Shown here: piece after piece, positions 43,478-47,130 of the stretch | Numbering within the stretch: the stretch's first letter is position 1 | Layout: each line of letters begins with the position of its first letter | Origin: an uncultured Bacteroidales bacterium | Lineage (GTDB): Bacteria; Bacteroidota; Bacteroidia; Bacteroidales; Muribaculaceae | NCBI GenBank assembly: GCA_902776435.1 | Contig: CACYQB010000001.1 | Location: forward strand, 172,988 to 236,987 | Reading direction: 5' to 3' | Length of the DNA: 64,000 nucleotides | Notes under the pieces: model-generated | Database searches by the model: none | Told to the model about the DNA's origin: nothing | What the model saw: only the letters and a program-made list of their open reading frames with translations | Translations under genes and position numbers: made by a program

Positions 43478-45058
43478 CTACTTGATGACGTTGCCCAGTA
43501 CATCGCGCAGGATCTGGCGTCCTGCTGCGCTGGTGGCGTTCTTCACGGCCCGTCCTGCAGCATCCTTGACGCTTGTATTCTTGCTCTTCTTGCCCGTAAT
43601 GGCATCGGACACGGTCTTGCCCAGGATGGTTGCCAGCGTGCCTGTGACGGCCGTTACAACGGCTTTCCACACCTTAGACCAGATGGTCTTCTCTTTCTTC
43701 TTGGATTTCTCCTCCTTCTCGGCTTCCTTAGCGGCTTCGGCTTCTTCGGCAGCCTTGGCCTCGGCTTCGGCTTCGCGGGCAAACACCTCAAAGACGCTCT
43801 CGCGATCTTGGGCCTCTTTGTATTTGCGGTTGACGTCGCTGCTGGCGTTCATGATGTCGAGACGTTGCCCCTCGGTGATGGCTCCAATCTGGCTAAGCGG
43901 GAAGAGGACTTTGGCGCGTTCTACCATACTGGGCGCACCTTTCTCATCGAGGAAGGAAACCAGCGCTTCGCCAGTTTCCAGGCTCGTGATGGCTTCTTCG
44001 GTCTTGAATTCAGGGTTGGCGCGGAAGGTCTCGGCAGCCACCTTGACGGCTTTCTGGTCGCGTGGCGTGTAGGCACGCAGGGCATGCTGTACCCTATTGC
44101 CTAGTTGCCCCAGGATGACATCGGGAATGTCGGTAGGAAGCTGCGAAATGAAGAAGATGCCCACGCCCTTACTGCGGATGAGGCGGATCACCTGCTCAAT
44201 CTTGTCGGTAAGCGCCTTGCTCGTGTCCTCAAACAACATGTGTGCCTCGTCAAAGAAGAAGACCAGCTTGGGTTTCTCCAGGTCGCCCACCTCGGGAAGT
44301 GTGCTGTAGAGTTCGCTCAGCAGCCACAGCAGGAAGGTGGAATAGAGTTTGGGTTGAAGCATCAATTTGTCGGCGGCGAGCACGCTGAGCACGCCCTTGC
44401 CGTCACGCGTGGCCAGCAGGTCCATGATGTCAAACGAGGGGGTGCCGAAGAACTTGTCCGCACCCTGGTTTTCCAGATGCAGCAATGCGCGCTGGATGGC
44501 TCCGATGCTGGCGGTGGAGACGTTGCCATATTGTGTGGTGTACTCCTTGGCGTGCCTGGACAGCCAGTCGAGAGCTGAGCGCAGGTCTTTCACATCGTCA
44601 AGCAGAACACCCTTCTCGTCAAGGATGCGGTACAGGATGTTAAGCACGCCAGTCTGGGTCTCGTTCAGCCCCAGGATGCGCGCCATCAGGTCTGGGCCCA
44701 TTTCGCCGATGGTGGAGCGCATCGGGATGCCCTGCTCGCCATAAACGTCATAGAACCTGACCGGACAGCCCTCAAAGGTGAGGCTCTCCTGGTCGATGCC
44801 GAACTCCGGCAGCCTTTTCTCGATAAAGCTGGACAGCTTGCCCGGTTGGCTCACGCCCGACAGGTCGCCCTTCATGTCGGCCATGAAGCAGGGCACGCCA
44901 GCCTTGCAGAAGCTCTCGGCAATCACTTGCAGGGTGACTGTCTTACCAGTTCCCGTGGCGCCGGCGATGAGGCCGTGGCGGTTGGCCATGTTGCCCAGGA
45001 TGCTGATGGGGCCGTTAGGCCCGTGGGCGATGTAGAATCCGTTTTCTTGAGTGTACAT
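43478..45058 (-). CDS. HerA-like helicase, DUF853 (YjgR family) ATPase
   Basis: This 526-residue P-loop ATPase has Walker A GATGTGKTVTLQ (about 33-44), Walker B PKLVFFFDEAHMLF (about 265-278) and a conserved FISQLPTDIPDVILGQLGNRVQHALRAYT segment (split here as FISQLPTDIPD and GNRVQHALRA). These fit DUF853/YjgR, relatives of the HerA/FtsK superfamily. The last 110 residues carry a Glu/Ala/Lys-rich coiled coil and a hydrophobic segment (VVTAVTGTLATILGKTVSDAI) that could be membrane-associated. Role unknown; no NurA partner nearby. Confidence 0.9.
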   Translation of the reverse strand: MYTQENGFYIAHGPNGPISILGNMANRHGLIAGATGTGKTVTLQVIAESFCKAGVPCFMADMKGDLSGVSQPGKLSSFIEKRLPEFGIDQESLTFEGCPVRFYDVYGEQGIPMRSTIGEMGPDLMARILGLNETQTGVLNILYRILDEKGVLLDDVKDLRSALDWLSRHAKEYTTQYGNVSTASIGAIQRALLHLENQGADKFFGTPSFDIMDLLATRDGKGVLSVLAADKLMLQPKLYSTFLLWLLSELYSTLPEVGDLEKPKLVFFFDEAHMLFEDTSKALTDKIEQVIRLIRSKGVGIFFISQLPTDIPDVILGQLGNRVQHALRAYTPRDQKAVKVAAETFRANPEFKTEEAITSLETGEALVSFLDEKGAPSMVERAKVLFPLSQIGAITEGQRLDIMNASSDVNRKYKEAQDRESVFEVFAREAEAEAKAAEEAEAAKEAEKEEKSKKKEKTIWSKVWKAVVTAVTGTLATILGKTVSDAITGKKSKNTSVKDAAGRAVKNATSAAGRQILRDVLGNVIK

Positions 45059-45243: not shown

Positions 45244-45275
45244 TTGGTGTGTATTATAAAATGGTTATATATTTG
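45244..45275 (+). promoter_or_regulatory. Promoter of the trp leader and trpB
   Basis: TTG (45244-45246), 21-base spacer, TATATTTG (45268-45275), 25 bases before the leader-peptide ATG. Confidence 0.65.
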
Positions 45276-45299
45276 CGCCATTAACATAAATATGAGAAA

Positions 45300-45359
45300 A
45301 TGACAACAATGATTTCAGCATTCTGGTGGTGGCGTAGCTCAAGATTGAAAAAGTCGTGA
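45300..45359 (+). CDS. trpL: Tryptophan leader peptide (attenuator)
   Basis: A 19-codon ORF reading MTTMISAFWWWRSSRLKKS has three consecutive Trp codons (TGG TGG TGG, 45324-45332) and ends at TGA 45359. It lies between a promoter and an intrinsic terminator, 102 bases before the trpB start. That is the layout of a transcription attenuator: a ribosome stalling at the Trp codons when Trp-tRNA is scarce would alter leader folding and let transcription continue into trpB. The exact antiterminator pairing is not clear by eye; GACC (45367-45370) can pair with GGTC (45406-45409) and GTCGC with GCGAC. Confidence 0.82.
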   Translation: MTTMISAFWWWRSSRLKKS

Positions 45360-45402
45360 GTCGCCTGACCGTGTGGAATCATTAAGATTGCAAAATAGAA
45401 AT

Positions 45403-45434
45403 AAAGGTCTGTCGTTCTTGCGACAGACCTTTTA
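45403..45434 (+). terminator. Attenuator terminator before trpB
   Basis: A perfect 12-bp stem AAAGGTCTGTCG/CGACAGACCTTT with loop TTCTTG, then TTAAATT. It ends 28 bases before the trpB ATG, so it must be read through for trpB expression. Confidence 0.8.
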
Positions 45435-45461
45435 AATTATTAATATAAATACATTACCGAG

Positions 45462-46817
45462 ATGAAACAGAAAAGATTTATTCTTCAAGAGAACGAGTTG
45501 CCTACAGCATGGTATAACATTCAGGCCGACATGCCCATTAAGCCCATGCCCCCTATTCACCCTGCTACCAAGCAACCGCTGGGCGTGGACGACCTGGCAC
45601 ACATCTTCCCGCGTGAGTGCTGCGTCCAGGAACTCGATACCGAGCATGACTTTATTCCTATCCCCGAGGAGGTGCTAGACAAGTATAAATCCTATCGTTC
45701 AACTCCGCTGGTGCGTGCCTACGCGCTGGAAGAAGCGCTCCAGACGCCTGCCCACATCTACTTCAAGAATGAATCGGTCAATCCGCTAGGCTCCCACAAA
45801 ATCAATTCTGCCCTGCCCCAATGCTATTATGCCAAGCAGGAAGGGACAACCAATGTCACCACCGAGACCGGTGCTGGGCAGTGGGGCGCCGCTCTGGCCT
45901 ATGCCGCATCGGTGTTCGGTCTTGAGGCCGCTGTTTATCAGGTGAAAATCTCGATGCAACAGAAACCCTATCGCTCATCCATCATGCGTACCTTTGGCGC
46001 TGCTGTGACAGGTTCGCCGTCGATGTCCACGCGTGCCGGAAAGGACATCATCACGCGTGACCCCCATCATCCTGGCTCGCTGGGAACCGCCATCTCCGAG
46101 GCCGTAGAGCTGGCCACGACAACTCCTAATTGCAAGTATACCTTGGGCTCGGTGCTCAACCATGTGGGCTTGCATCAGACCATTATCGGCCTTGAGGCCG
46201 AGAAGCAGATGACGATGGCTGGCGAATACCCTGACGTGGTGATTGCCTGCTTCGGTGGCGGATCAAACTTTGGCGGCATCGCTTTCCCCTTCATGCGCCA
46301 CAACCTGAAGGACGGCAAGAAGACAGAATTCATCGCTGCAGAGCCCGAGAGTTGCCCGAAACTCACTAGAGGAGAGTTCCGCTATGACTTCGGTGATGAG
46401 GCTGGCTATACTCCCTTGCTGCCCATGTTCACCCTAGGCCATTCCTTCAAGCCCGCTAACATCCATGCCGGCGGCTTGCGCTATCACGGAGCGGGCGTGA
46501 TCATCTCCCAATTGCTCAAGGACGGGCTGATGCACGGTGTTGACATTCCGCAACTCGAGTCCTTTGAGGCCGGAATGCTGTTTGCCCGCACCGAGGGCAT
46601 CATTCCCGCGCCCGAATCGAGCCATGCCATCGCGGCAGCCATCCGTGAAGCCCAGAAATGCAAGCAGACGGGCGAAGAAAAGGTCATCCTGTTCAATCTC
46701 TCGGGACATGGCCTGATTGACATGAGTGCCTATGACCAGTACCTGAATGGAGACTTGATCAACTACAGGGTTTCGGACCAAGACATTGAGCAGACACTCA
46801 AGAGCGTACCTGAGTGA
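45462..46817 (+). CDS. trpB: Tryptophan synthase beta chain, TrpB2 type
   Basis: This 451-residue PLP enzyme joins indole and serine to make tryptophan. PLP-site motif LGSHKINSA (Lys about residue 112), ETGAGQWGAALAYA, and the phosphate-binding CFGGGSNFGGIAFPF are present. Its length (about 450 against about 395 for TrpB1) and the extended N-terminus identify the TrpB2 group, which usually works without TrpA and may salvage free indole. It is a lone gene here; no other trp genes are in the window. The attenuator upstream shows control by tryptophan supply. Confidence 0.95.
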   Translation: MKQKRFILQENELPTAWYNIQADMPIKPMPPIHPATKQPLGVDDLAHIFPRECCVQELDTEHDFIPIPEEVLDKYKSYRSTPLVRAYALEEALQTPAHIYFKNESVNPLGSHKINSALPQCYYAKQEGTTNVTTETGAGQWGAALAYAASVFGLEAAVYQVKISMQQKPYRSSIMRTFGAAVTGSPSMSTRAGKDIITRDPHHPGSLGTAISEAVELATTTPNCKYTLGSVLNHVGLHQTIIGLEAEKQMTMAGEYPDVVIACFGGGSNFGGIAFPFMRHNLKDGKKTEFIAAEPESCPKLTRGEFRYDFGDEAGYTPLLPMFTLGHSFKPANIHAGGLRYHGAGVIISQLLKDGLMHGVDIPQLESFEAGMLFARTEGIIPAPESSHAIAAAIREAQKCKQTGEEKVILFNLSGHGLIDMSAYDQYLNGDLINYRVSDQDIEQTLKSVPE

Positions 46818-46848
46818 GAAAATCATCATAATCCATAAAAGATGCACT

Positions 46849-46877
46849 GGAGGGCGGAAGTTATTTTTCCGCCCTTC
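46849..46877 (+). terminator. Hairpin after trpB
   Basis: AGGGCGGAA/TTCCGCCCT hairpin about 30 bases after the trpB stop. The T tract is weak (TTCATTG). Confidence 0.55.
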
Positions 46878-46878
46878 A

Positions 46879-46911
46879 TTGTGTCGTTATGGACGGGAAA
46901 TTGTACCTTTG
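46879..46911 (+). promoter_or_regulatory. Promoter of the fucose-type cluster, upstream of the repeat element
   Basis: TTG (46879-46881), 22-base spacer, TACCTTTG (46904-46911). Transcription would start just before the inverted-repeat element. Confidence 0.55.
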
Positions 46912-46934: not shown

Positions 46935-47130
46935 TGAATTCGACGAAAATAAAGTACTGATGCTCAGCACCCCCTCTTGGATAAGAGGGGGCTGGGGGGC
47001 GTCGATGACACAAAATGCGGGTCCCGTCACAGTAGCATCAACGCCCCTGCCCTTTGGGCACCCCCTCTAATCTTAGAGGGGGAGTGGCTAACGCATTGAA
47101 TCACAATATATGGCTTTTCGTCGAACTCGC
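46935..47130 (-). repeat. About 195-bp inverted-repeat element, copy 2
   Basis: Same core as 7643-7835 but inverted. Outer ends GAATTCGACGAAAA (46936-46949) and its near-complement (47115-47128) are also conserved. It lies between a TACCTTTG promoter and the ATG at 47157, mirroring copy 1. Confidence 0.8.

Follow-up and report, generated by a model that had tools for sequence, protein, structure and literature searches.

The locus studied here raises the question of why a lone trpB2 gene should be preceded by a short open reading frame (ORF) carrying three tandem tryptophan codons, and what such a leader would do for the bacterium that carries it. The gene lies in a 64,000-nucleotide stretch of DNA (hereafter the window, meaning the whole stretch analysed) from a Bacteroidales genome of 3.4 Mb that is 95.4% complete. 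The original prediction answered with ribosome-mediated attenuation, and the layout, the conservation and the kinship of the leader to trp-operon leaders all support that reading; transcription attenuation of trpB2 by charged tRNA-Trp is, with high probability, the best explanation of the locus.

Architecture of the leader locus

Direct reading confirmed the predicted 19-codon ORF with three tandem TGG codons between a promoter and a hairpin ahead of trpB2. The features, in order along the window, are as follows.

45244..45275, plus strand: putative Bacteroidetes-type promoter (-33 TTG at 45244-45246, N21, -7 TATATTTG at 45268-45275)
45300..45359, plus strand: leader peptide ORF MTTMISAFWWWRSSRLKKS (ATG at 45300, 19 codons, TGA at 45357-45359)
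45324..45332, plus strand: three tandem Trp codons, TGG TGG TGG, the proposed stall site and segment 1
45338..45360, plus strand: conserved hairpin directly 3' of the Trp codons, CUC-AGAUU/AGUC-GAG (helix 2)
45362..45370, plus strand: segment 2, CGCCTGACC, a conserved stretch just 3' of the leader stop codon
45374..45392, plus strand: small hairpin within the proposed antiterminator, UGnAAUC/GAUUnCA, seen in folds and alignment
45403..45432, plus strand: predicted intrinsic-terminator hairpin (segments 3 and 4), with a perfect 12-bp stem and a 6-nt loop
45462..46817, plus strand: lone trpB2, encoding a TrpB-like PLP enzyme (TIGR01415/PRK12391) of 451 aa, with its ATG at 45462
46841..46885, plus strand: hairpin 3' of trpB2 (fold -29.5 kcal/mol, z -6.2; not in the terminator-scan list)

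Two elements of the original description held in part. First, the "full promoter" is present as TTG-N21-TATATTTG, which we take to be the Bacteroidetes promoter motif and whose TATATTTG part is kept in aligned relatives, but the best sigma-70 matches at the locus reach only 9 of 12 positions, near chance (4 observed against 2.1, sd 1.5, in shuffles). Second, the stem of the "perfect 12-bp intrinsic terminator" is indeed perfect, but the U-tract that follows it is poor (UUUUAAAUUAUU); because this tract is short, the hairpin is missing from the plus-strand terminator list, its minus-strand reading being listed instead. The weak U-tract favours a different use of the same parts, in which Trp codons control translation or mRNA stability, with the hairpin or a stalled ribosome affecting either RNA decay or how accessible the trpB2 start is. 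We consider this improbable, and the geometry speaks against it, since the hairpin ends 29 nt ahead of the trpB2 ATG and leaves the start uncovered.

The leader RNA as a whole has a folding energy of -52.4 kcal/mol, with a z of -6.5 relative to shuffles. The nine letters of TGGTGGTGG are not rare by themselves, occurring twice in the 64-kb window against 0.87 expected, a point in favour of a chance ORF beside an unrelated terminator; conservation, rather than TGGTGGTGG itself, decides that the leader is real, and together with the covariation described below it leaves such a coincidence with next to no probability. Just upstream, on the opposite strand, lies a gene for a HerA-like ATPase (526 aa, 43478-45058) that scores under the cut-offs of the named models. 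The hairpin 3' of trpB2 is probably its own terminator, and the gene is probably monocistronic; between it and the next gene (46950-47085) are palindromic G/C-rich repeats (CACCCCCTC...GAGGGGG).

Conservation of the leader within the genus

TrpB matches were found in 77 of the 101 genus genomes, and 29 genus trpB2 loci, at an identity of at least 88%, make up what we term the close type. Within it, a leader ORF with three tandem Trp codons (WWW) occurred in 26 of the 27 upstream regions of at least 150 nt, and in none of 20 shuffles of each. When leaders are counted across contig ends, 28 of the 29 close-type genomes carry one, two of these being G080 and G088, in which trpB2 is cut by a contig start and a strong leader match lies at the end of another contig. 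The contig-end leader of G088 likely belongs to its trpB2. In G080 (L209 end, L003 start), leader and gene are separated by an insertion-element-like inverted end (GTGTCCACTAAAAAAT / ATTTTTAGTGGACA). The single exception, G078 (L027), has lost the leader and kept the promoter and hairpin.

No WWW leader was seen in the upstream regions of 43 more distant congeneric trpB2 genes (38 of these genes are 59-75% identical and 5 are about 52% identical; L066 and L043 were omitted for want of upstream sequence), and some leaderless genus regions (L028 and L034) hold WW in longer or distant frames, none of them WWW. Under a rule demanding TTTT after the stem, a terminator was called in 21 of the 29 close-type regions, two of the 29 being contig starts without a leader; this incomplete yield is a second point in favour of control at the level of translation or stability.

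The original prediction had named relatives that lack Trp codons while keeping the terminator as evidence against it. Such relatives exist, though they were rare among the regions read: beside L027 in the genus there are L108 and L127 in Prevotella, in which the hairpin is kept without a leader ORF. All three look like decayed leader copies and, as terminator hairpins without a Trp leader, offer natural tests of the effect of the hairpin alone.

Pairing and covariation in the leader RNA

Covariation was counted in 57 leaders aligned to a model (R2) built from leaders of both kinds, those before trpB2 and those before trp operons, taken from the genus and Prevotella, the alignment being fitted to the model and thus favouring structure. 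In this alignment, 93.0% of cells were paired and two-sided changes occurred in 17 pairs, against 9.7 in shuffles. The terminator and the post-Trp hairpin covary: two-sided changes were found in 11 of 11 pairs of the terminator (helix 3) and in 6 of 8 pairs of the post-Trp hairpin (helix 2), where 90.4% of cells were paired. None of the 5 pairs of the helix between the Trp codons and segment 2 showed such changes. In the small hairpin at 45374..45392, L007 and L020 differ, as read by eye, by an exchange of C-G and A-U.

Segment 2 has two possible partners, the stretch of Trp codons (1:2) and the 5' arm of the terminator (2:3, the antiterminator). Minimum-free-energy folds contained at least four pairs between segments 2 and 3 in 32 of 34 trpB2 leaders, against 3.7 expected, and segment 2 paired with the terminator arm in 8 of the 9 trpB2 leaders that are non-redundant (0.9 expected). 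Among the non-trpB2 leaders it did so in 16 of 24 (2.5 expected), 11 of the 35 having been skipped by the motif rule. Covariation of this antiterminator pairing, which the original prediction had put forward as a check, did not appear despite the widespread complementarity. Specifically, in an arm-swap test, a leader's own arms paired at -7.61 kcal/mol and swapped arms at -7.52, with 3563 of 10000 permutations as low; the test was likewise negative in 37 non-redundant leaders, and RNAalifold returned no consensus antiterminator for the stalled segment.

Modelling the ribosome as a mask gave a similarly graded picture. Masking up to the stop codon, as compared with masking at the first Trp codon, lowered the predicted upstream pairing of the terminator arm in all 34 trpB2 leaders and in 32 of the 35 others, which is the direction expected of attenuation, although part of this drop is trivial because less RNA remains. 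With the ribosome stalled at the Trp codons, the terminator arm of the trpB2 leaders was paired upstream with a probability of 0.546, little more than the 0.499 of shuffles, and the value without a ribosome (0.485) was hardly lower; the contrast between stall and no ribosome was clearer in the 35 other leaders (0.58 versus 0.31).

These alignments also bear on whether the peptide, rather than the RNA, could be the sensor. The peptide part WWWR.SR.K is conserved among close relatives, as would be expected of a TnaC-like arrest peptide in which the nascent chain senses free tryptophan or indole. Beyond the Trp codons, however, the amino acids differ between leaders (S, C, N; L, F, S) and the paired nucleotides are mostly retained, which points to constraint on the RNA rather than to a functional peptide. 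Further, in the trpB2 leaders the stop codon does not follow the last Trp codon at a fixed distance (21, 27 or 36 nt), the feature shared by the peptides of all 57 aligned leaders is the Trp repeat itself (WW, WWW or WCW), and the layout is common to trp-operon leaders. An arrest peptide is thus very unlikely, and the leader is better understood as an attenuator of the trp-operon type.

Kinship with trp-operon leaders

In all five genus genomes with both trpA and trpC, the trp operon is led by a leader with two tandem Trp codons. A WWW leader (MLQCKINNYWWWRNSEFKN...) also lies upstream of a lone trpB1 in G001 (L202, G001:C104:13861-14008, minus strand), at a contig end; neither trpA nor trpC was matched in that genome. 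A model built from trpB2 leaders only (R1) scored the G001 leader at 50.7 bits and found two of the five genus trp-operon leaders, weakly (G044 at 34.0 and G045 at 23.4 bits), the other three being found by reading. Searched across the family (397 genomes), R1 gave nothing above 39.9 bits outside the genus. Seven R1 matches outside the genus were considered as leaders and rejected, as on inspection they look like plain terminators after genes; at L211, the stretch before the R1 match holds a WW-containing frame that we took for the end of a gene.

At E<=1e-3, model R2 found matches in 141 of the 393 genomes of the order. The 29 best matches besides that of the window all precede trp genes (trpB1 in 26, trpE in 2 and trpD in 1). 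Among 60 further matches, chosen down the list and making up part of it, 56 were followed on their own strand by trp-operon genes, 3 preceded trpB2 and 1 was a plain terminator, for totals of 85 of 89 before trp-operon genes, 3 before trpB2 and 1 plain terminator. A leader with two or more Trp codons accompanied 59 of these 60, the exception being the plain terminator.

A known RNA family provides a second line of comparison, namely the Bacteroid-trp leader RNA (Rfam RF01692; Weinberg et al. 2010, PMC2864571), called the tryptophan peptide leader in Rfam. In a 231-base search, the window leader scored 38.2 bits against it (E 0.0029), short of the gathering threshold of 49, with the Trp-codon leader, the hairpin region and the terminator 5' arm aligning end to end over model positions 1-131. 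In the search of the whole window against Rfam, RF01692 was not listed for the leader; two tRNAs were the only matches above cut-off, and no other known regulator was found. In a scan of 20 order loci, 13 matched RF01692 at E<=1, 9 of them over the cut-off. No match at E<=1 was obtained in nine loci (the five genus trp operons, the lone trpB1 L193 and three Prevotella trpB2 leaders), a weak test, given that at this search size even a score close to the 38.2 bits of the window leader would have an E of about 1 (0.97 for 37.7 bits). Judged by sequence similarity, the link of the window leader to RF01692 runs through its order relatives, R2 picking up the window leader as well as recognised members of the family; because its own score is below the threshold while those relatives match, it may be described as a divergent relative of the family and not a member by Rfam's threshold.

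Two side observations concern how such leaders are distributed along chromosomes. On one contig (G735:C19), three separate Trp attenuators (L248, L249 and L250) precede trpB, trpEGD and trpCFA, as if a trp operon had been split with an attenuator copy on each piece. At two other loci (L300, G595:C46:21120-21391; L301, G597:C36:61524-61797), two tandem leader matches precede one trp gene cluster and are possible double attenuators.

Probable attenuation of trpB2 beyond the genus

The original prediction regarded a leader of this kind before a single trpB2 gene as unusual. Our results revealed it to be less so than claimed. Of 80 trpB2 loci from named records, 6 belong to the genus sample; among the remaining 74, leaders with WWW, WCW or WW were found at 8, against 0.05 expected for a pattern (WWW, WCW or YWWR) that was picked after the sequences were seen. 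All eight come from rumen Prevotella-type metagenome-assembled genomes (MAGs; L080-L083, L090, L092, L136 and L152).

Wider sampling extended this pattern across the order. TrpB2-type matches (E<=1e-40) were present in 148 of the 393 order genomes, and an R2 leader match lay just upstream of trpB2 in at least 8 of these, window included, when the two lists were crossed by eye; since R2 misses many trpB2 leaders, this count is a lower bound. Besides the window, the genomes concerned are, among the matches listed, G457, G479, G583, G635, G675, G679 and G704. G704 carries trp-operon genes as well as trpB2, each with a leader match upstream; G679 and G583 gave no trpA match, and the trpA of G457 is a single sub-cut-off fragment. 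Forty order trpB2 upstream regions were then read; R2 matched 4 of them and had no listed match for the other 36, which were hand-picked rather than drawn at random. WWW leaders stood in 15 of the 40, against 0.0 expected, and 12 of these were among the 36, a fraction that gives no rate estimate since the regions were hand-picked. One of the WWW leaders (L341) is doubtful and looks spurious.

Outside the genus, a strong T-run terminator stood before the gene in 14 of 14 WWW-led trpB2 loci, compared with 5 of 24 without WWW, a count that sets apart L341 and L307 (the latter also with a terminator). One of those five (L332) has a WWLW ORF. At L307, in G704, none of the ORFs beginning with ATG carries tandem Trp codons; a GTG-started WSW ORF is possible by eye. 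These T-run terminators, and that of the Prevotella locus L082, which is likewise strong, argue for transcription termination and against control of translation or stability. Leader and terminator also precede trpB2 at L272, L274 and L276, and the resulting 17 loci represent 12 Bacteroidales families besides the window's own.

A TrpB2 tree bears on how this distribution arose. It comprised 143 rows built by a quick method, with 56 of its 140 inner branches drawn open, and omitted five short rows (L053, L066, L072, L073 and L074) and a duplicate (L105). The genus close type clusters with five leader-bearing Prevotella rows in a group of 33 rows with a support of 98, well apart from the remaining trpB2 genes of the genus; one member of that group (L138) has no leader, and the leader-bearing rows L136, L092 and L152 are interspersed with Prevotella rows that have none. 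From these topologies we infer that gene and leader may have been transferred together between the genus and Prevotella lineages, with repeated loss of the leader; alternatively, the leader may have been gained multiple times. Several related bacteria seem to use the same switch on trpB2. We lean, with some reserve, toward regarding attenuated trpB2 as a widespread Bacteroidales unit, in which, across many families, the attenuator of the trp operon or a relative of it governs trpB2 and tryptophanase bearers would recapture indole only under tryptophan starvation, and the leader and gene as a cassette that has moved between rumen Prevotella and the genus.

The trpB2 product and its genomic context

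The product of trpB2 exceeds the TIGR01415 cut-off (588.9 bits versus 518.85) and passes the PRK12391 model, and it fails the TrpB1 model TIGR00263 (149.5 versus a cut-off of 392.45). Its best solved relatives are 6hul, 4qys and 6hte, titled tryptophan synthase beta chain 1 and 2. What lone TrpB2 enzymes do has been debated, with indole salvage set against serine deamination (PMC1854888, PMC11917138, in the parts consulted). If TrpB2 were a non-salvage enzyme, such as the serine deaminase once proposed (PMC1854888), the attenuator would merely link it to amino-acid starvation. The TrpB2 enzymes tested in the same source, however, were poor serine deaminases, the leader is specific to Trp, and 85 of the 89 related leader matches read sit before trp-operon genes, so we give a non-salvage role little weight.

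Gene content is in line with salvage. In the host genome, we found no trpA match, no trpC match and no TrpE-type gene, its sole chorismate-binding enzyme being an isochorismate synthase. It does encode a tryptophanase (TnaA; NF053783, 916 bits, cut-off 750), the best solved relative of which is 8sbg. Of the 101 genomes in the genus sample, 5 have trpA and these 5 alone also have trpC; none of them is among the 29 close-type trpB2 genomes. Tryptophanase-type matches were found in 73 of the 101 (71 above cut-off). Compared by eye, 27 of the 29 close-type genomes have a tryptophanase-type match (G032 and G073 do not), that of G078 being solely a fragment under the cut-off. The records of the close relatives are MAGs, several of them from ruminants, labelled Prevotellaceae, Muribaculaceae or Bacteroidales. 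The reading of the locus as tryptophan-responsive indole salvage, also part of the original prediction, is thereby supported by the layout, the conservation, the relation to trp-operon leaders and the lack of trpA and trpC.

No tandem-Trp leader indicative of TnaC-like control was seen by eye upstream of the host tnaA, nor in the genus tnaA upstream regions fetched. A block around TTTTGCCAGTTCGnCAAGTTnCCGTAACTTTGC upstream of tnaA is largely conserved in 8 of the 12 genus regions fetched (L155-L158 and L163-L166).

Proposed mechanism and its implications

We infer a course of stalling, termination and read-through, as well as the in vivo direction of the enzyme and the avoidance of a futile cycle, as follows. 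Transcription of the leader would start near 45280. When charged tRNA-Trp is ample, the ribosome would pass UGG UGG UGG and halt at the UGA at 45357. Because the stop directly precedes segment 2, that segment (45362-45370) would fall within the footprint of the terminating ribosome and be covered, allowing the terminator at 45403-45432 to form and leaving trpB2 untranscribed. Under tryptophan starvation, the ribosome would instead stall at the Trp codons, some 30 nt short of the UGA, so that segment 2, left free, could pair with the 5' arm of the terminator and RNA polymerase could enter trpB2. TrpB2 would then form tryptophan from indole and a serine donor.

Gene content and the specificity of the leader suggest that TrpB2 acts in indole recapture, opposing TnaA. 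Because TnaA is present and no trpA, trpC or TrpE-type gene was found, the switch probably permits this recapture only when tryptophan is scarce, avoiding a futile cycle. A rumen host that seems to lack de novo tryptophan synthesis appears to switch on trpB2 only when its ribosomes lack tryptophan, by means of a type of RNA switch that ordinarily governs entire trp operons. A Trp-specific attenuator provides evidence, independent of biochemistry, that trpB2 serves tryptophan supply, and it offers a testable link between tryptophanase, rumen or gut indole, and tryptophan auxotrophy. Further, the trpB2 leader might serve to report tryptophan starvation in Bacteroidales.

Comparison with known systems

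In the trpL attenuator of Escherichia coli, segments pair as 1:2, 2:3 and 3:4, and the stop codon lies beside segment 2. Compared by layout alone, the window leader shares this segment logic and the position of the stop codon, but differs in promoter type and in target. Trp attenuators of this class are already known in Bacteroidota, as RF01692. The window leader resembles that family in the tandem Trp codons of its leader ORF, its hairpin and its terminator 5' arm, and belongs to the same phylum, but the RF01692 matches read precede trp-operon genes whereas the window leader precedes a lone trpB2; it differs also in that its segment 2 GACC pairs with the terminator GGUC. The trp-operon leaders of the same genus (L197-L201) share the tandem Trp codons, post-Trp hairpin and terminator, but have two Trp codons rather than three, trp-operon targets and weak sequence similarity. 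In the open-licence literature searched, no leader-attenuated lone trpB2 in Bacteroidota was found. Leader-peptide attenuation before amino-acid operons has been suggested in Flavobacterium (PMC9723704, in the part consulted).

Attenuators outside a main trp operon have parallels elsewhere. Actinobacterial trp attenuators have two or three UGG leader codons and terminators, and some stand before trpS2 or a trpB2A operon (PMC1262725). These are from another phylum, and in the sections of that source consulted their "trpB2" adjoins trpA and no lone trpB2 is described. The trpRBA operon of Chlamydia, as far as the sources consulted describe it, likewise places a salvage tryptophan synthase under tryptophan-responsive control, but does so through the proteins TrpR and YtgR rather than through leader-peptide attenuation.
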